64,000 nucleotides of DNA from Thiothrix subterranea (GTDB taxonomy: Bacteria; Pseudomonadota; Gammaproteobacteria; Thiotrichales; Thiotrichaceae): contig NZ_CP053482.1 in assembly GCF_016772315.1 (NCBI RefSeq), forward strand, positions 2,294,001 to 2,358,000, in the 5' to 3' direction. The position numbers and the translations under genes were made by a program. The notes under the pieces were generated by a model. That model made no database searches. It was not told the origin of the DNA and was given only the letters and a program-made list of their open reading frames with translations. Of the stretch, positions 3,241 through 42,263 are shown piece by piece; within the stretch, counting starts at the first letter, position 1, and each line of letters opens with the position of its first letter.

Positions 3241-4660
3241 GCGTTTCTAGCGTGATCATGCTAAGCGCGTCCTGTAATGCCGAGCGTGCATCCGCGCTTA
3301 AATTGGGTTGTTGCAATTGAGCGGTGAGGCGTTGGCGCAATGCCGTATTGTTTTGCAGTTTATCCATCACTGGAACGCCTGCCATTTGTGCGCCCAAAAT
3401 CAAGCCCACCTGTTCGGCTAAGGTTTTGCTGTCGACAATGCGTTGGTAGTACACCGCATCGGCTTGTTCACGGTATTTGAGCAATTCCATGGCATAGCGC
3501 TGCGTCCCGTATTCGGAGAGTGAGTAGCGGTCTTGCAAGGTGGGTTGCGCCAAAGCATTGTCGAGGTATTGCAACAGTAGTTGCCGGTGTTGTTCGGGTA
3601 TCACTTTGTTGACGTTGGCTTCCGCCGCATTGGGGGAGAGTTCCATGAAAATGCTATTGCTGAACAGGGTTATTATGCTGCGCCGTTCTTCTGGGGGCAT
3701 GGCGGTGCTGTTAATGTCACGCAATAAGGCGGCGACATCGGTGTTCGGGTCAGTCAATTTCTGTTGCTGTAAGCGGAAGTTAAAATAGTAGTCGGGGTTG
3801 AGATGAACCCGTAAATTTTCCAGTTGTTGGGCGAATTGTTCGGCGGAAACCAAGCCGTGCGAATCTTGTGACATGGTGCGGTAAATCTCTAAATAGGCGC
3901 GGAGCACTTCGGGGTCGGTTTCGCGGGGGAATTGCATTTCCAGAAAATCTTTGATGTATTGCTGGCGGGGTGTGGCGCGTTGCACGGTTGCGGCGTTCAC
4001 ATTGCCATCGTAGTAACGGGTTTCCGGTGGTAGCAAGATGCTGAAGGCTAAGCTGGCACGCGCCAGCCCAGAATGTTCACCGGCGGCGGCTAATACGCTG
4101 AGCATGTCTTTAAATAACGCATCATCCAGTGTGTTACTCATGATGCTCAATGCTTGCGAACTCGCGGGGTCGTCTAGCCCCAGATTGAGCACTTGCTCCC
4201 ACACTGCCCGTTGCGCCAGCGGAATGGAAATATTTTTAGCTTGCAGAAAGAGTGTGTCGAGGCGTTCGGATAACGCATCAAGCCGAGGTTGGTAAGCTTC
4301 GCGCATTGCTTCATCGGCTTGTTGATAAGGGTCGTAGGGGTTGTAGAGCAGTTGTTGCAAGCTGGAAATTTCCAGCAAAATGGTGTGGATTTCACTGAGC
4401 AAGGGGTCAAGTTTGGCGAGCAATCCAGTGATGGCTGTTGGCGTTGGCGGGGCAATGCCTTGGGTAGCCTTCTGCGCAGTTGCTGTTAACGGTGTACTTG
4501 CTGCAAAAGGTAAGCGTGCGGCTGTATTCGGGGCGTCAAGGTGTGCTACTGTGGCAACAGATTGCGAGGGTGTAGCCGGTGTATCGGGCTTGCCATACCA
4601 GTAAGCTAAGGTGATAGCAATGGCTATCAATAAGCTGAAACCCAGTTTGTAACTGTTCAA
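3161..4660 (-). CDS. Membrane-anchored periplasmic protein of unknown function
   Basis: A 499-aa protein I do not recognise. Residues about 7-23 form one hydrophobic segment (FSLLIAIAITLAYWYG), followed by a Pro/Thr/Ala-rich linker (about 25-75) and then a long, mainly helical region rich in Leu, Gln and Ala with no cysteine-rich or catalytic motif that I can see. The likely topology is a single N-terminal anchor with the body in the periplasm, perhaps a scaffold or lipase-chaperone-like helical protein (the segment VLRAYLEIYRTM and the flanking helices recall that style, but this is a guess). It stands alone, divergent from hemL and overlapping the 3' end of thiE by 80 nt. Confidence 0.7.
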   Translation of the reverse strand: MNSYKLGFSLLIAIAITLAYWYGKPDTPATPSQSVATVAHLDAPNTAARLPFAASTPLTATAQKATQGIAPPTPTAITGLLAKLDPLLSEIHTILLEISSLQQLLYNPYDPYQQADEAMREAYQPRLDALSERLDTLFLQAKNISIPLAQRAVWEQVLNLGLDDPASSQALSIMSNTLDDALFKDMLSVLAAAGEHSGLARASLAFSILLPPETRYYDGNVNAATVQRATPRQQYIKDFLEMQFPRETDPEVLRAYLEIYRTMSQDSHGLVSAEQFAQQLENLRVHLNPDYYFNFRLQQQKLTDPNTDVAALLRDINSTAMPPEERRSIITLFSNSIFMELSPNAAEANVNKVIPEQHRQLLLQYLDNALAQPTLQDRYSLSEYGTQRYAMELLKYREQADAVYYQRIVDSKTLAEQVGLILGAQMAGVPVMDKLQNNTALRQRLTAQLQQPNLSADARSALQDALSMITLETPMPTEPDYVPESVPDSGSPVLQSPGY

Positions 4661-4718
4661 GCGTAAACCTCTCGCGTAAGATTATAAATCTTCCCTGTTA
4701 TCGTCAATTCTGCCAAGG

Positions 4719-6008
4719 ATGCCAGCCGTGACCCGTTCTGAAACGTTATTTGAGCAAGCCAAACATTCCATTCCCGGTGGGGTTAATTCCCCGGTACGTG
4801 CCTTTCGCAGTGTCGGCGGTTCTCCCCGTTTTATTGCCCGTGCTCAAGGGGCGTATATGTGGGATGCAGACGGCAATCGCCTGATTGATTACGTCGGTTC
4901 GTGGGGGCCGATGGTCGCTGGTCACGCGCACCCCGAAGTCGTCGCTGCGGTGCAAGCCGCTGCGGTGGATGGTTTGAGCTACGGTGCGCCCACCGCGTTG
5001 GAAATCACCATGGCAGAGCGCATTTGCGCCCTCATGCCGTCGATTGACATGGTACGCATGACCAGTTCGGGCACGGAAGCCACCATGTCGGCGATTCGCT
5101 TGGCGCGTGGTTTTACCGGGCGCGATTTCTTGGTCAAGTTTGAAGGGGGCTATCATGGTCATGGCGACTCGTTGCTGGTGAAAGCCGGTTCGGGGGCATT
5201 GACGTTTGGACAACCGAGTTCCCCCGGTGTTCCCGCAGCATTGGCGCAATACACCCTGACGCTTGACTATAACAATAGCACACAGGTGCGCGAAGTGTTC
5301 GCGGCGCGGGGGCATGAAATTGCCTGCATTATCGTCGAACCCGTTTCCGGCAATATGAATTGCATCCCGCCTGTCGACGGTTTCCTCGAAACCTTGCGCG
5401 AGGTCTGTGATCAATCCGGTGCGGTGCTGATTTTCGATGAAGTCATGACCGGCTTTCGCGTGGCACTGGGCGGTGCGCAGCAGGTGTACGGCGTGAAACC
5501 TGACATTACCACGCTGGGTAAAATCATTGGTGGCGGAATGCCGGTCGGCGCGTTCGGCGGCAGGCGTGACATTATGGAACAGTTGTCGCCGTTGGGCGCG
5601 GTGTATCAGGCTGGCACGTTATCCGGCAACCCGATTGCGATGACGGCCGGGTTGAAAATGCTGGAAATCATTGCCCGTGATGATTTTTACGCGGAATTGA
5701 CCAGCAAAACCACGTATTTACTGGAAGGTTTGCAGCAAGTTGCTGATGCTGCCGGTGTGCCGTTTACCACCCAGCAAGTGGGCGGAATGTTCGGTTTGTT
5801 TTTCACCACCGAACCACGCATTGACACTTACGCGCAAGTGACGCAATGCAATATTCAACAATTCAACCGCTTTTTCCACGGCATGTTAGACCGGGGCGTG
5901 TATCTCGCACCGTCGGCGTATGAGGCGGGATTTGTATCCAACGCTCATAGCCAAGCCGATTTGGATGAAACCATCGCCATTGCCAAAGATGTATTTGCCA
6001 GCTTATAA
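4719..6008 (+). CDS. hemL: Glutamate-1-semialdehyde 2,1-aminomutase HemL
   Basis: HemL converts glutamate-1-semialdehyde to 5-aminolevulinate, the committed precursor of haem, sirohaem and cobalamin. The 429-aa PLP enzyme of the class III aminotransferase fold shows [18 protein letters not shown] at the N-terminus, the cofactor motif [18 protein letters not shown], the aspartate motif [13 protein letters not shown], and the Schiff-base lysine K268 in [18 protein letters not shown]. Length matches the family. AAGGATGCC precedes the chosen ATG. It is followed 18 nt later by the secreted protease gene on the same strand; that link is probably positional rather than functional. Confidence 0.97.
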
Positions 6009-36788: not shown

Positions 36789-39005
36789 CTACAGCTTTTC
36801 TAAATTGGCGTAACCCAGCACCAGCCATTTAACGCCCACCGCTTTAAAATTCACCTGTACCCGCGAATGTGCGCCCGCGCCTTCGGAATCGGTGATGACG
36901 CCATCGCCAAACTTGGCATGACGTACCCGTTGCCCGACCCGATAGCCGGTTTCATTGAAGTTGGTGGTGCGCGTCACGGGTTTGGGGGCATTGGCTGGGG
37001 CGCGGAATTGGTTATTGCCGCCAAAGCCGGTGGAATAGGTTTTCACTTTCGGACGCACTTCTTCCACCAATTCCGCCGGTAATTCGCGCAGGAAACGTGA
37101 CGGCGGGTTGAATTGCTTACGTCCGTGTAACATGCGTTCCTCGGCGTAACTCATCACCAGTTCTTTTTCCGCACGGGTAATGCCGACGTAGCACAGGCGA
37201 CGTTCTTCTTCCAACCGTGCCGGGTCATCGGCGGACATTTGGTGCGGGAACAAGCCTTCTTCCAAGCCGCACAAAAACACCAGCGGGAATTCTAGCCCTT
37301 TGGCAGAGTGCAGCGTCATCATTTGCACGCAATCTTCACCGGCTTCGCCCTGACCTTCGCCCGCCTCCAACGCCGCGTGCGAGAGGAAAGCGGAAAGTTC
37401 GCTCATATCCGGGGTTTCTTCGGATTGCACGTAGGTGTAACCCTGTGCGGCGGTGACTAATTCGTTGAGGTTGTCGACGCGCCCTTGCCCCGCTTCGCCT
37501 TTTTCTTTGGCGAGGAAATGCGGTTTGAGTCCGGCAAGGTCGATGACGATTTCGACTTGTTCGCGCAAGGGCAGGCTATGAATGTCGCTTGCCATGCGTT
37601 TGATCAGTTGCACGAAACCGAGCACGCCATTGCTGGCTCGTGGGGTGAAATCGCCGATGTCAGCGGCTTGCGCGGCTGCTTCCCATAAGGACAGATTGGT
37701 GGCTCGGGCGTGGCTGCGCAGGATGTCGACGGTGCGTTCGCCAATACCGCGTGGCGGGTGATTGACGATGCGTTCAAACGAGGCATCGTCTTGGTGGTTA
37801 ACGGTGAGGCGCAAATACGCCAGCGCGTCCTTGATTTCGGCGCGTTCAAAGAAGCGTAGGCCGCCATAGACACGGTAGGGAATGCGGTTTTCGTTAAACG
37901 TGCTTTCAAATACCCGCGATTGCGCGTTGGAACGGTACAAAATGGCAACGTCGCGGCGCATTCCGCCCTGATCTACCCATTTTTGAATGCGCCCGGCAAC
38001 AAAACGGGCTTCGTCGATTTCGTTGAAGGCAGCGTAGAGGTGCAGGCGTTCGCCGTCTTTCCCATCCGTCCACAAGTTTTTGCCCAAACGCCCTTTGTTA
38101 TTATCAATCAAGGCATTGGCGGCTTTGAGGATATTGGCGGTGGAACGGTAGTTTTGTTCCAGCCGCACCGTTTCGCAATCGGGGAAATGTTTGGTGAAAT
38201 TGCGGATGTTTTCGATCTTTGCGCCGCGCCAACCGTAAATCGACTGGTCGTCATCGCCCACAGCAAACACCGGATTTCTATCCCCCGCCAGCAGGCGCAA
38301 CCATGCGTATTGCAGTGCGTTGGTATCTTGGAATTCGTCCACCAAAATGTGGCGGAAACGGTTGCGGTAATGCTGTTGCAGGTCGGGGTTGTCGCGCAGC
38401 AATTCCAGCGAGCGCAGCAACAGTTCGGCGAAATCCACCACGCCGTTGCGTTGGCAGGTTTGTTCGTACACGCTGTAAATTTGCACCATTTGGCGTTGGT
38501 TGAAATCGCCTTTGTCTTCAATGTGGTGCGGGCGTGAACCTTCGTCCTTACGGGCATTGATGAAACCAGCAACTTGGCGCGGCGGGAAGCGAGTTTCGTC
38601 GAGTTCCAACGATTTGAGGATGCGCTTGACCATGCGAATCTGGTCTTCGGAATCGAGAATTTGGAAGGTTTGCGGCAATTTGGCTTGTTGCCAGTGCAGG
38701 CGTAGTAAGCGGTGCGAAATGCCGTGGAAGGTGCCAACCCACATGCCGCCGCTGGGCAGTTGCAGCAGGTCTTGGATGCGCCCGCGCATTTCTGCCGCCG
38801 CTTTGTTGGTGAAGGTCACGGCAAGGATGCTTAATGGCGAGACGTTTTCGACTTCGATTAGCCAGGCAATGCGGTGGACTAGCACGCGGGTTTTACCGCT
38901 GCCTGCGCCTGCGAGGACGAGGACGGATTTGGGCGGCGCGGCAACGGCGAGTTGTTGCTGCGGGTTTAGGGGGGCGAGGATGGGGGATTGGGTATTCATA
39001 TTCAT
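36789..39005 (-). CDS. uvrD: UvrD/Rep-type DNA helicase (DNA helicase II)
   Basis: A 738-aa superfamily 1A helicase acting 3'-5' in excision and mismatch repair. It has motif I LAGAGSGKTRVLVHRIAWL, TFTNKAAAEMRGRI, DEFQDTNALQYAWLRLLAGD, VGDDDQSIYGWRGA, VRLEQNYRSTANIL, and motif V/VI LHSAKGLEFPLVFLCGLEEG and RRLCYVGITRAEKELVMSYA. The C-terminal tudor-like domain of UvrD (YRVGQRVRHAKFGDGVI to the end) is present. The start at 39005 overlaps the endonuclease stop (ATGA), so it is translated from the restriction operon transcript, an unusual context for a housekeeping repair helicase. Confidence 0.96.
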   Translation of the reverse strand: MNMNTQSPILAPLNPQQQLAVAAPPKSVLVLAGAGSGKTRVLVHRIAWLIEVENVSPLSILAVTFTNKAAAEMRGRIQDLLQLPSGGMWVGTFHGISHRLLRLHWQQAKLPQTFQILDSEDQIRMVKRILKSLELDETRFPPRQVAGFINARKDEGSRPHHIEDKGDFNQRQMVQIYSVYEQTCQRNGVVDFAELLLRSLELLRDNPDLQQHYRNRFRHILVDEFQDTNALQYAWLRLLAGDRNPVFAVGDDDQSIYGWRGAKIENIRNFTKHFPDCETVRLEQNYRSTANILKAANALIDNNKGRLGKNLWTDGKDGERLHLYAAFNEIDEARFVAGRIQKWVDQGGMRRDVAILYRSNAQSRVFESTFNENRIPYRVYGGLRFFERAEIKDALAYLRLTVNHQDDASFERIVNHPPRGIGERTVDILRSHARATNLSLWEAAAQAADIGDFTPRASNGVLGFVQLIKRMASDIHSLPLREQVEIVIDLAGLKPHFLAKEKGEAGQGRVDNLNELVTAAQGYTYVQSEETPDMSELSAFLSHAALEAGEGQGEAGEDCVQMMTLHSAKGLEFPLVFLCGLEEGLFPHQMSADDPARLEEERRLCYVGITRAEKELVMSYAEERMLHGRKQFNPPSRFLRELPAELVEEVRPKVKTYSTGFGGNNQFRAPANAPKPVTRTTNFNETGYRVGQRVRHAKFGDGVITDSEGAGAHSRVQVNFKAVGVKWLVLGYANLEKL

Positions 39006-39958
39006 AGTCTCACCAACCATTCGCATAAGGCAGCTAATTGATCATCGCTAGTCAAATTGGCGCAATTCGCCAACTCGCCTGTCTGGTATTGTGAAAAAAT
39101 TTCTCCCGCCATTGCTTGTTCAATAGCAGCCCCCACAAACAATAAGGGCAGTTTTCCAGCAAATGCGGTTCTGGCTCGACCTAACGCACTATTGGCTGTT
39201 TTCCAGTGTTCGTCTGCCCCTGCTGGGTCAATACCACCTTTTAGTTCACCAATAGCCAAGTAATGTGCGGTGTTGTCCAATAATTTTTTTAAATCCTGCG
39301 TTTTAGGTGCATCGGTTACGATGGCATCATTGAGCAATACAATATCAATATTCTTTTTAACAGGAGGCACATTGGTATCAAAGATTAAGATTCGCTGCTG
39401 GTTATTTTTATTAGACCAACGAATAGCTTTGATAGTATCAATATCCTCAACACCAAGCTGTTCTCCGGGTGTGGATCGGAGCTTTTTGTCTAAGTAGGAA
39501 AATTGGGTATCAGCTATTTGCAATTGAGAGATGATAAAGCGTGTTAATTTTTCTTTGGCGATAGAGCCAACAATATTACGCATTTTGCCGCCTAAAGCAT
39601 CACCAGAAGTCAGAAGATAGCGATAAACGACTTCATCAATATAAGCTTTGCCACTAGGCAATAAGATTTTTTCAATAAAATCATTGAGAAGTCCCTGTTT
39701 ATCGGATTCAGTCAAGTGCACTTTTGCCTTGACGGAAATGCCAGAGGCTTCTAATAAACTCTCCCTAATATTGGTGAGTGTTAATAAATCATTAGGCGAC
39801 TGCGTATGGACTTCCAATACCGCTTTGAGGGCTTTAGCTCGGTCAATAAAAGGAATCGACTCCTTATTTCGACGTAACGCATATTCCAAAAAACCACTGC
39901 GGCGGGCGGCGGGCGTTGTCACTAAATCAGTGGCTGCGGTGATGTGAATATTATTCAC
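39002..39958 (-). CDS. Type II restriction endonuclease, BsoBI/AvaI-like
   Basis: A 318-aa protein whose core matches the BsoBI/AvaI family of CYCGRG-cutting enzymes. It has E238-L-K240 in LAIGELKGGIDPAGADEHW and H251 thirteen residues after E238, the same spacing as the E240/K242/H253 active site that I recall for BsoBI. Upstream acids D205 and D211 (NIDIVLLND) could complete the set. Length is close to the family's. It starts with GTG, overlaps the beta methyltransferase gene by 8 nt and uvrD by 4 nt. The DNA here is visibly more AT-rich than the flanks, suggesting acquisition. CYCGRG specificity is inferred, not seen. Confidence 0.85.
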   Translation of the reverse strand: MNNIHITAATDLVTTPAARRSGFLEYALRRNKESIPFIDRAKALKAVLEVHTQSPNDLLTLTNIRESLLEASGISVKAKVHLTESDKQGLLNDFIEKILLPSGKAYIDEVVYRYLLTSGDALGGKMRNIVGSIAKEKLTRFIISQLQIADTQFSYLDKKLRSTPGEQLGVEDIDTIKAIRWSNKNNQQRILIFDTNVPPVKKNIDIVLLNDAIVTDAPKTQDLKKLLDNTAHYLAIGELKGGIDPAGADEHWKTANSALGRARTAFAGKLPLLFVGAAIEQAMAGEIFSQYQTGELANCANLTSDDQLAALCEWLVRL

Positions 39959-40355
39959 CTAAGTTATCCTCGAAAATTTGTGTCTTGATCGCAAGACCAA
40001 TCGCCTTGGCAAGCACGGGGGGAACTGCGTTACCAACCTGACCGAATTGCGTCATCGTGACAATGCGTTTGCTGCTGTATGAATCTAAACGTGTACCGAT
40101 GAATTCCCAATGGAGAGGAAACGTTTGTAAGCAAGCCAACTCACGTACCGTCAGCATTCGATCTTCATACGGATGGATGAAATCGCGATAACCGCTACGG
40201 GTTACAGTTGGTGAAGGTTTCGTGGGATCAAGCCGCCGATAGGTGGAGCCAAACGTTTGTTTGATCTGACTGAGCTTGCCACCAATAGGGACAATTTTAA
40301 TTTTTTCCAACGTCGTTGGCGCGTGTGCCGTTTTTTGGTGATTTTTAATAACCAT
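39951..40355 (-). CDS. C5-cytosine DNA methyltransferase, beta subunit (C-terminal half of a split enzyme)
   Basis: A 134-aa protein containing the C-terminal part of a C5 methyltransferase: target-recognition segment, SPTVTRSGYRDFIHPYEDR, motif IX MLTVRELACLQTFPLHW (about residues 67-83) and motif X FGQVGNAVPPVLAKAIGLAI. The ATG at 40355 lies inside the end of the alpha gene and has its own Shine-Dalgarno, AAGGAAGGA, 9 nt upstream; a TTG three codons earlier is less well placed. Alpha and beta overlap by 11 nt. This is the same arrangement as M.AquI, a CYCGRG methyltransferase made of two separately encoded chains, so it is annotated as a genuine second subunit rather than frameshift debris. 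Confidence 0.85.
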   Translation of the reverse strand: MVIKNHQKTAHAPTTLEKIKIVPIGGKLSQIKQTFGSTYRRLDPTKPSPTVTRSGYRDFIHPYEDRMLTVRELACLQTFPLHWEFIGTRLDSYSSKRIVTMTQFGQVGNAVPPVLAKAIGLAIKTQIFEDNLGE

Positions 40356-41088
40356 GTCGGGCAATCCTTCCTTTTATCGTTCCCGCTACTTTCATCGCGG
40401 TATCGGAGGGTTCGTCGGCGTTTGGTAATGAACCAATGCCATCCCAGACCGATTGCCATGTTTGATGGTGCTTAGCAAATAGGTCTGCTTGGTGATTGGC
40501 AGGGGCTGTGTGCGTTGGTTTAGGAAACGTAAAGCTTTTTCCTATGCGATTACCGATAATAAAAATACGTTCCCTGAATTGGGGTGCACCAAAATCAACA
40601 GCATCCAATACTTGATAGGATACTTGGTATTGATAGATTTGATTTTGATACGTAATAGGTTGGGAGGCTTCATCTAAAATAGCTTTTAGTGCTTTCCCGC
40701 CTTCCCAATTCATCATGCCCTTAACATTTTCCATCACAAAGGCAACGGGTAATGCTTCGCGTACCACGCGCAGAAATTCTAAAACCAAACGACCTCTAGG
40801 GTCATCTAAGCCCATGCGTTTACCCGCTAAGCTAAAACTTTGGCAAGGGGGGCCACCAACTACTAAAGCAGGCTCCAAGGGTTGTAAACCTGCTTTAGCC
40901 AAAATCGCATGGGTGGGTAGTGTTGTAATATCGCCTTCGATAATTGGAGTATCCGACATATTTTTGCGTAACGTAGCGCAACAGGAACTGTCTTGTTCGA
41001 CGGCTACAGCAGTGATGAACCCGGCTTGGTGAAAACCTATGTCCATGCCACCTGCTCCCGAAAAAAGGCTAATGATTTTGTTTGGCAT
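40345..41088 (-). CDS. C5-cytosine DNA methyltransferase, alpha subunit (catalytic half of a split enzyme)
   Basis: A 247-aa protein with the N-terminal C5-methyltransferase motifs: I LFSGAGGMDIGFHQAGF (residues 8-24), IV GGPPCQSFSLAGKRMG with catalytic Cys82, VI FVMENVKGM (E120-N121-V122) and VIII APQFRERIFIIGNR (about 168-181). It ends soon after motif VIII, where the target-recognition domain would begin. Motifs IX and X are on the separate beta chain (39951-40355). From memory M.AquI has chains of about 248 and 139 residues, close to the pair here. The start follows the mazF stop with no gap (TAAATG). Confidence 0.9.
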   Translation of the reverse strand: MPNKIISLFSGAGGMDIGFHQAGFITAVAVEQDSSCCATLRKNMSDTPIIEGDITTLPTHAILAKAGLQPLEPALVVGGPPCQSFSLAGKRMGLDDPRGRLVLEFLRVVREALPVAFVMENVKGMMNWEGGKALKAILDEASQPITYQNQIYQYQVSYQVLDAVDFGAPQFRERIFIIGNRIGKSFTFPKPTHTAPANHQADLFAKHHQTWQSVWDGIGSLPNADEPSDTAMKVAGTIKGRIARHGY

Positions 41089-41442
41089 TTATAATATCCG
41101 TCGTTCGATCAATAGTTGCACGCCTGCAATGATTTCCTGCATCCGTTCTGCTGACACGTTACCGATTTTTTCGGTCAGTTCGTCCTTGTTGACGGTGTAG
41201 ATTTGGGAGACATTCACCACACTGGCTTTGGGGAGGTTTGCCTCACCTTTTTTTAGCAATACGTTGCCGGGGGATTGCGCCCGTTTGAGGTTAGAGGTGA
41301 GGCTGCAAACCACTACTGTGCTAATCAGGCTGGCATTGAATACGTCATTTTGCAGCACTAGATGCGGGTGGCGGTAGCCCGGTTCTGAACCTGCGGGTTC
41401 GCCTAAATCCACCCAATAAATCTCACCTTGCTTGATTACCAT
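41089..41442 (-). CDS. MazF/PemK-type endoribonuclease toxin
   Basis: A 117-aa toxin of the MazF/PemK barrel family: N-terminal KQGEIYWVDLGEPAGSEPGY, then RHPHLVLQNDVFN, VVVCSLTSNLKRA, and the catalytic-Ser/Thr region NLPKASVVNVSQIYTVNKDE. Such toxins cut mRNA at short sequences. It overlaps the antitoxin gene by 7 nt and abuts the methyltransferase alpha gene, so toxin and restriction-modification genes share one transcript. Confidence 0.93.
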   Translation of the reverse strand: MVIKQGEIYWVDLGEPAGSEPGYRHPHLVLQNDVFNASLISTVVVCSLTSNLKRAQSPGNVLLKKGEANLPKASVVNVSQIYTVNKDELTEKIGNVSAERMQEIIAGVQLLIERRIL

Positions 41443-41699
41443 GCCTCTGTCTCAAGACGGCGGGCTTGTTTTTGTTTCATGGCGGTTTGTATGTGTGTTT
41501 CTTCGGCATCCGACGCGGCATCGTCGTAAGCGGCGTTGATTTGCGCCAGTAATTGGCGATTTTTGTTTTTAGCGATGAAGTCTTCTACCGCCAGCATGAA
41601 CAGTTTGCTGCGGGAAATGTGCAATTCTTGCGCCAGTTGGTTGATGGCATCAAACAAGTCTTGTTGGATGGAAATGGCTGTTTTGATACTGGTCGACAC
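41436..41699 (-). CDS. Ribbon-helix-helix antitoxin partner of MazF
   Basis: An 87-aa protein with an N-terminal ribbon-helix-helix fold ([20 protein letters not shown], then [19 protein letters not shown]) for operator binding, and a charged C-terminal tail ([20 protein letters not shown]) that would neutralise the toxin. It is the first gene of the antitoxin-toxin-methyltransferase-endonuclease-uvrD operon. A perfect inverted repeat (41734-41770) lies 35 nt before its start and is the obvious candidate for its binding site. Confidence 0.88.
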
Positions 41700-41733
41700 G
41701 GTAACACCTGCTTAAATGGGGCAAATTCCACTG

Positions 41734-41770
41734 ATAGTATTGACGTTGGTTATACTGGTGTCAATACTAT
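41734..41770. promoter_or_regulatory. Symmetric operator/divergent promoter of the toxin-antitoxin-R-M operon
   Basis: ATAGTATTGAC and its exact reverse complement GTCAATACTAT are separated by 15 nt. Each arm contains a -35-like TTGAC for one strand and a -10-like AATACT for the other, with TTGACR and AATACT 17 nt apart on both strands. A single symmetric element could thus drive both the minus-strand operon and the plus-strand YaiI/YqxD gene and be bound by the ribbon-helix-helix antitoxin. Confidence 0.65.
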
Positions 41771-41798
41771 GGGCAATACTGTTACCAAGGAAACCACC

Positions 41799-42263
41799 AT
41801 GCAAATCTGGGTCGATGCCGATGCCTGCCCCAATGTAATCAAGGAAATCCTATTTCGCGCGGCGGAACGCTTGCAAATTCGCACCACGCTGGTGGCAAAT
41901 CAACCCCTGCGGATTCCGCCGTCACTCTACATCAAAACCATTCAAGTGCAGGCGGGCTTTGATGTGGCGGATAACCGCATCGTGCAAGATTTGGAAGCAG
42001 GCGATTTGGTGATTACCGCCGATATTCCCTTGGCGGCAGAGGTGATCGAAAAACAGGGACACGCGCTGAATCCACGCGGGCAATTTTACACCCCGGAAAA
42101 TATTCGCGAACGTTTGCGGGTACGCAATGCGATGGAAGAAATGCGCAACAGCGGGGTGATGACCGGCGGGCCTGCGACCTTGAGTTTGAGTGATCGGCAG
42201 GCGTTTGCGAATCAGTTAGACCGTTTCCTCACCAAACACGGCTTAACGCCGCGTAAGATTTGA
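41799..42263 (+). CDS. YaiI/YqxD (DUF188) family protein
   Basis: A 154-aa protein of the conserved YaiI/YqxD family, which has a PIN-like fold. Landmarks are [20 protein letters not shown] at the N-terminus, [40 protein letters not shown] and the C-terminal [20 protein letters not shown]. The invariant Asp residues of the N-terminal motif are present. The start is the ATG at 41799, after CCAAGGAAACC; an earlier in-frame ATG at 41769 lies in the operator. It is divergent from the antitoxin operon and converges on arsJ. Biochemical role unsettled in the family; a nuclease activity is suspected from the fold. Confidence 0.93.

Follow-up and report, generated by a model that had tools for sequence, protein, structure and literature searches.

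A probable AquI-type restriction-modification system with a C5 methyltransferase encoded as two overlapping genes in Thiothrix subterranea

Genes of the cassette and their coding potential

The window analysed here is a stretch of 64,000 nucleotides (nt) from Thiothrix subterranea (contig NZ_CP053482.1, positions 2,294,001 to 2,358,000). Its minus strand carries, between positions 39002 and 41088, a cassette of three genes in the order alpha, beta and nuclease, the first two encoding the parts of a C5 methyltransferase and the third a restriction endonuclease (lengths in amino acids, aa):

40345..41088, minus strand: alpha subunit of the C5 methyltransferase, with motifs I-VIII and the catalytic PPCQ; 247 aa; from the open reading frame and Pfam
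39951..40355, minus strand: beta subunit, with the target-recognition region and motifs IX-X; 134 aa from the ATG at 40355
39002..39958, minus strand: type II restriction endonuclease of the BsoBI/AvaI family; 318 aa from a GTG

The alpha gene starts directly 3' of the stop codon of a PemK-like gene, and the GTG of the nuclease overlaps the end of beta by 8 nt. Beta can also be read from a TTG (39951-40364, minus strand; 137 aa). The G+C content of the cassette is 44% versus 53% for the window. Alpha covers positions 2-193 of the 324 positions of the Pfam DNA_methylase profile (E 1.8e-48) and holds PPC(82)Q as well as ENV at 120; beta covers positions 236-323 (E 4.2e-11). According to PMC3404938, the AquI system of Agmenellum quadruplicatum has a two-chain C5 methyltransferase split after motif VIII. 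Alpha has what belongs to the large chain of this type, namely motifs I-VIII with the catalytic Cys, and beta what belongs to the small one, namely the remainder of the variable region together with motifs IX-X. The nuclease covers 3-313 of the 313 positions of Pfam Endonuc-BsobI (PF09194; E 1.2e-102) and matches the BsoBI structure 1dc1 over residues 5-317 (E 3.7e-81). Its D205, E238, K240 and H251 align with BsoBI positions 212, 240, 242 and 253, so that the catalytic D, E-x-K and H of the BsoBI/AvaI family are all present; we take D212/E240/K242/H253 to be the BsoBI active site. No match to an N4-type methyltransferase was found in the 3,945 bases around the nuclease (L009).

A sequence-only reading of this DNA had proposed an M.AquI-like two-gene layout beside a BsoBI-like nuclease, with chains of 247 and 134-137 aa and with E238-x-K240 and H251 spaced as in BsoBI. 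The chains agree with both open reading frames and Pfam matches, the spacing with the alignment to 1dc1, and the layout with these matches and with the gene order that recurs in relatives. We therefore regard it as highly probable that the cassette is an intact and complete AquI-type type II restriction-modification system, with a two-chain C5 methyltransferase and a nuclease for CYCGRG. Alpha (S-adenosylmethionine binding, catalysis) and beta (target recognition, motifs IX-X) would be made separately from the overlapping genes and assemble into one C5 methyltransferase marking CYCGRG, and the nuclease would cut this sequence where it is unmarked.

The alpha/beta junction

The junction between the two methyltransferase genes has two features:

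40345..40355, minus strand: 11-nt overlap ATGGTTATTAA, containing the codons at which beta starts and alpha stops; its place does not vary among the 18 rows compared
40356..40377, minus strand: purine-rich, Shine-Dalgarno-like stretch AAAAGGAAGGAT inside alpha, upstream of the beta ATG

The beta ATG begins 8 nt before the alpha TAA, and a 10-nt spacer separates it from an upstream GGAAGG. We compared this junction in 18 rows, that is, the window, the sister genomes G377 and G381, and 15 further loci. In every one of them beta lies in the +1 frame relative to alpha with an 11-nt overlap, which reads ATGGNTATTAA. The beta start codon, always at the same place, is ATG in 17/18 rows and TTG in the remaining one (L037); in L015 five further codons follow the beta ATG.

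Beta takes up the C5 methyltransferase profile after alpha and in the +1 frame, as would be seen if a single-chain gene had been broken by a frameshift, either a sequencing error or a recent mutation, and beta were its remnant. Against this stand the identical two frames and overlap in 18/18 rows. Moreover, both halves are under purifying selection: dN/dS between the window and G377 is 0.06 for alpha (last 240 codons) and 0.08 for beta. Finally, in G381, a sister that has lost most of the nuclease, alpha and beta are both intact, the alpha protein being unchanged and beta differing by one residue. We reject sequencing error or decay as the cause of the split, the former being refuted by the relatives, and give the broken gene almost no credence. 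The earlier argument for two proteins holds, and an extra base near 40350 fusing the frames, which had been named as the finding that would overturn it, is in practice excluded by the same two frames in the sisters and the 15 loci.

The constancy of the +1 frame and the conservation of the overlap in all 18 rows would also fit programmed +1 frameshifting within the overlap, which would yield a fused alpha-beta chain, perhaps beside two separate ones. However, neither a beta start codon nor a purine-rich stretch before it would then be needed. The alpha C-terminus in the junction rows is (H/Y/F)GY, and the start codon is kept even where the alpha residue is Tyr or Phe. We consider frameshifting very unlikely. 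As for the separate synthesis of two chains, translation of beta would probably be initiated by ribosomes that have just terminated on alpha, or by others binding the Shine-Dalgarno-like stretch within it.

Codon choice at the junction points in the same direction. Outside the two sisters, the alpha His codon is CAT in all 13 rows that have His (rough P 9e-4, given the codon use of each alpha). Within the purine-rich stretch, Arg is encoded by AGA/AGG in 18/18 rows, in keeping with the earlier claim of a Shine-Dalgarno sequence for beta inside alpha, and in 16/16 rows without the two sisters (rough P 4e-5, given the codon use of alpha). For both P values the two sister rows were left out and the loci were treated as independent, which they are not, so that significance is overstated. 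Because CAT is found in 13/13 and AGA/AGG in 16/16 rows, we read this codon choice as the probable outcome of selection to keep a start codon and a ribosome-binding stretch that lie concealed in alpha.

A 12-nt repeat at +16 is, on average over the 18 rows, 7.9/12 identical, compared with 3.5 (standard deviation 0.9) at other offsets, which were tried up to 120 nt either way and reached 6.1 at best. In the window itself the repeat is 5/12 identical, and the idea of an origin by tandem duplication is post hoc.

Relatives, phage copies and local history

To place the cassette among its relatives, we scanned one genome per species with the nuclease alignment, which gave 437 confirmed relatives, the best 80 of which were examined. 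Among these 80, alpha and beta precede the nuclease in the same order in 15, an N4-type methyltransferase is the partner in 63, and no methyltransferase is in view in two (L016 and L047), both with the nuclease at a contig end. The 15 split-cassette loci come from Cyanobacteriota, Pseudomonadota, Bacteroidota, Fibrobacterota, Kiritimatiellota and one uncultured bacterium. One of them, L015, belongs to Picosynechococcus PCC 7117, which we take to be the AquI lineage; Picosynechococcus is the present name of Agmenellum quadruplicatum. Another, L014, is Thiofilum flexile, and genome G305 apparently has the same sequence (same scores). At L024 (4214-5608) alpha is fused to an additional N-terminal portion of about 227 aa that matches no Pfam family, and beta is still separate. 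Natural splits of this kind had been called rare. It is true that few such enzymes have been characterised, but 15 of the best 80 of 437 nuclease relatives have the split, so that rarity was overrated. Our literature searches found no survey of AquI-type pairs.

A quick nuclease tree was built from 85 rows (the window, 79 of the 80 loci, two plasmid loci and three viral loci, without L087, whose frame is broken, and without L009 and L010, which duplicate the window and L014). The 16 split-partner rows together with L016 lie on one side of a branch with a Shimodaira-Hasegawa-like approximate likelihood ratio test (SH-aLRT) value of 100. The remaining 69 rows comprise 67 with an N4-type partner and two without a methyltransferase in view (L016 falls inside the C5 clade). 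C5 and N4 partners are a single change apart on this tree; within the N4 type, the two gene orders follow the clades almost completely. A methyltransferase tree of 27 rows places the split forms, those of phages included, in one starred clade (98/95) with L015 inside it; the single-chain rows sit on very long branches, and the neighbour of the split clade is unsure. The shared clade and the same overlap indicate common descent with the Picosynechococcus pair, and the split has an apparent single origin that would be old and is widely spread, the 11-nt stop/start overlap having probably been kept ever since. A close single-chain relative was found neither through plasmid matches to beta (less than 60% identical in 229/229 records) nor among the 63 genomes of the family, where the four high beta matches all belong to the split enzymes already described. 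With the beta profile, 398 sampled genomes of the phylum yielded only the window's own copy at E <= 1e-25. The search for a single-chain form was not exhaustive, the genome-contig scan having used the nuclease and the best 80 of its 437 relatives.

The split enzyme is also found in viruses. Scanning viral contigs with the beta alignment gave seven loci: five with the same match scores (L255-L259), one distinct (L260) and one 109-nt fragment. The six usable loci, on contigs of 20-297 kb, have separate alpha and beta open reading frames at about 4190-5430 of each locus and no nuclease match; L255 and L260 were read across the junction and show the 11-nt overlap. Comparing the nuclease alignment with the six whole viral records gave no match either, in records that may be fragments and in a search without a positive control, and 50,697 phage records held no nuclease match. 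Near L260, on a 297-kb contig, lie genes for a DNA ligase and the large subunit of a terminase; the terminase family PF03237 was not found in the six viral records. BsoBI-family nucleases occur in three viral contigs (L093-L095), where the partner is an N4-type methyltransferase. From the gene content, we infer that the phage alpha-beta pair is likely an anti-restriction enzyme, giving self-protection against CYCGRG-cutting hosts; the nuclease-free copies suggest that the pair lends itself readily to such use.

It is tempting to speculate that the split happened once, probably when a short tandem duplication of 16 nt (3n+1) shifted the frame where the recognition region starts and so created the alpha stop and the beta start in one step. 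The split might then have been frozen as the 11-nt overlap, setting two-chain assembly, have spread across at least five phyla, and have been acquired by large phages, without the nuclease, as a shield by which they methylate their own DNA against CYCGRG-cutting hosts. Taken as a whole, we hold this scenario to be possible but rather doubtful.

Among 16 genomes of the genus, the full nuclease is present in two and a remnant in one (G381). The features of this local history are:

39066..39857, no strand: part of the nuclease that sister G381 has lost in frame; 792 bp, leaving a 54-codon stump
39000..41088, no strand: mobile unit, with an uncertainty of a few bases at either end; missing at the corresponding locus in G382

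G382 has an empty site between uvrD and the PemK-like gene, with flanks 94.7-95.8% identical. G377 carries the cassette, with an AAA/DUF4143 gene replacing PemIK, and G383 has the AAA gene alone in that stretch. Thus the uvrD-side site (window 39000-41800) holds, in different mixes in the window, G377, G381, G382 and G383, three interchangeable elements: alpha-beta-nuclease, the PemIK toxin-antitoxin and the AAA/DUF4143 gene. Thiofilum carries the cassette at another place, and no match to it at the DNA level was found among plasmids. The local presence and absence of the cassette, the exchange of PemIK and AAA and the lower G+C content together argue that the cassette moves as a unit, within a site whose cargo changes.

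Target site and comparison with known systems

In a 400-kb (10%) sample of the window's genome, CYCGRG was seen 7 times versus 180 expected, an observed/expected ratio (O/E) of 0.039 or about 25-fold depletion; the window has three sites in 64 kb and none in the cassette. The O/E values in 400-kb samples are 0.04 for the window's genome (G000), 0.07 for G377, 0.04 (0.037) for G382 and 0.06 (0.064) for G369; in samples of 96-100 kb they are 0.00 for G381, 0.43 for G378, 0.85 for G371, 0.06 for Thiofilum G305 and 0.68 for E. coli K-12. Strong depletion is shared by the four carriers of alpha-beta that were sampled (G000, G377, G381 and G305). Among non-palindromic hexamers, the asymmetric members CCCGAG/CTCGGG take ranks 3-4 of 4014 in G000, 3-4 of 4016 in G377 and 1-2 of 3872 in G305; G381 has 0 where 15.5 are expected, too few for ranking. 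Judged by these members, CYCGRG is the second most depleted of 286 degenerate palindromes in the window's genome, and in Thiofilum it is the first of 274, level with GRGCYC. In the 400-kb samples of G000, G377, G382 and G369, 13-17 of 64 palindromic hexamers have an O/E below 0.1, CCGCGG being seen 0 times versus 164 expected in G000.

Several observations weigh against taking this depletion as the mark of the cassette. G382 (ranks 1-2) and G369 (ranks 5-6) lack the cassette, yet they are equally depleted; in most of these genomes the depletion of GRGCYC is similar to that of CYCGRG; and the window's genome has several other C5 methyltransferases. Because G382 and G369 are as depleted as the carriers, depletion as proof of present activity is rejected: it is the product of lasting or recurrent exposure within the group, or of another enzyme. 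For the earlier prediction of CYCGRG specificity this means that family membership and site depletion remain on its side, but that depletion is shared by two relatives without the cassette. The target, and with it the position of the methyl group, is predicted from kin. A system that has drifted from CYCGRG to another specificity in both nuclease and methyltransferase would fit this dependence on kin and the similar depletion of GRGCYC in this genome. However, the beta recognition block is nearly invariant from Picosynechococcus to the window (16 rows aligned), and the ranks of CYCGRG in the window's genome and in Thiofilum also speak against drift, which we find highly improbable.

The break point agrees with what is seen in other C5 methyltransferases. 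Most of the single-chain enzymes taken from plasmids have one NH motif at the opening of the recognition region, and beta starts just before that motif; the exceptions, L145, L146 and L149, have no clear NH there. According to PMC3404938 and PMC5944983, enzymes split between motif VIII and the recognition domain, whether naturally or artificially, are functional, and in PMC5944983 such splits complement efficiently. The break point is that of natural circular permutants and of working artificial split methyltransferases (the same two papers), which are wanted for targeted DNA methylation. The window's own 4.08-Mb genome holds 14 stretches matching the C5 methyltransferase profile, about 11 distinct enzymes when neighbouring pieces are counted together. 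It also has a circularly permuted C5 methyltransferase that starts at the AquI-type split point (L141, 3565-4644; C1, about 2120564-2121643) and clusters with another C5 methyltransferase and an Eco29kI-type nuclease.

Four known systems can be compared. L015, of the AquI lineage, has an adjoining BsoBI-family nuclease, the same gene order and junction, and chains of 248 + 139 aa, the chain lengths of M.AquI; it differs in the five extra beta residues, and the window nuclease and beta are 59% and 73% identical to their counterparts there. BsoBI and AvaI share with the window nuclease its family and catalytic positions. However, nucleases with a split C5 partner form a separate clade, whereas BsoBI/AvaI-type relatives mostly have an N4 partner (67 rows), M.BsoBI and M.AvaI themselves being N4 enzymes. 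M.EcoHK31I is likewise a C5 methyltransferase of two polypeptides, but its motif X is in the large chain and only IX in the small one (PMC3404938). In the window, motifs IX and X (QVGNAVPP) are both in beta, and a split of the EcoHK31I type is accordingly rejected. Circular permutants of the M.BssHII, M.Alw26I and M.Esp3I kind share the new chain end, as they begin between motif VIII and the recognition domain (PMC5944983), but they are one chain in the order IX-X-I-VIII. Seen beside these, the oddity of M.AquI becomes a lineage that can be traced, in which the split apparently arose once and both the break point and the translational junction are fixed, and why the enzyme stays split becomes a testable question. 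The system is of a known but little-charted kind, an AquI-type type II restriction-modification system; what is new is that the overlap is conserved, that the split seems to have a single origin and that nuclease-free copies occur in large phage contigs.

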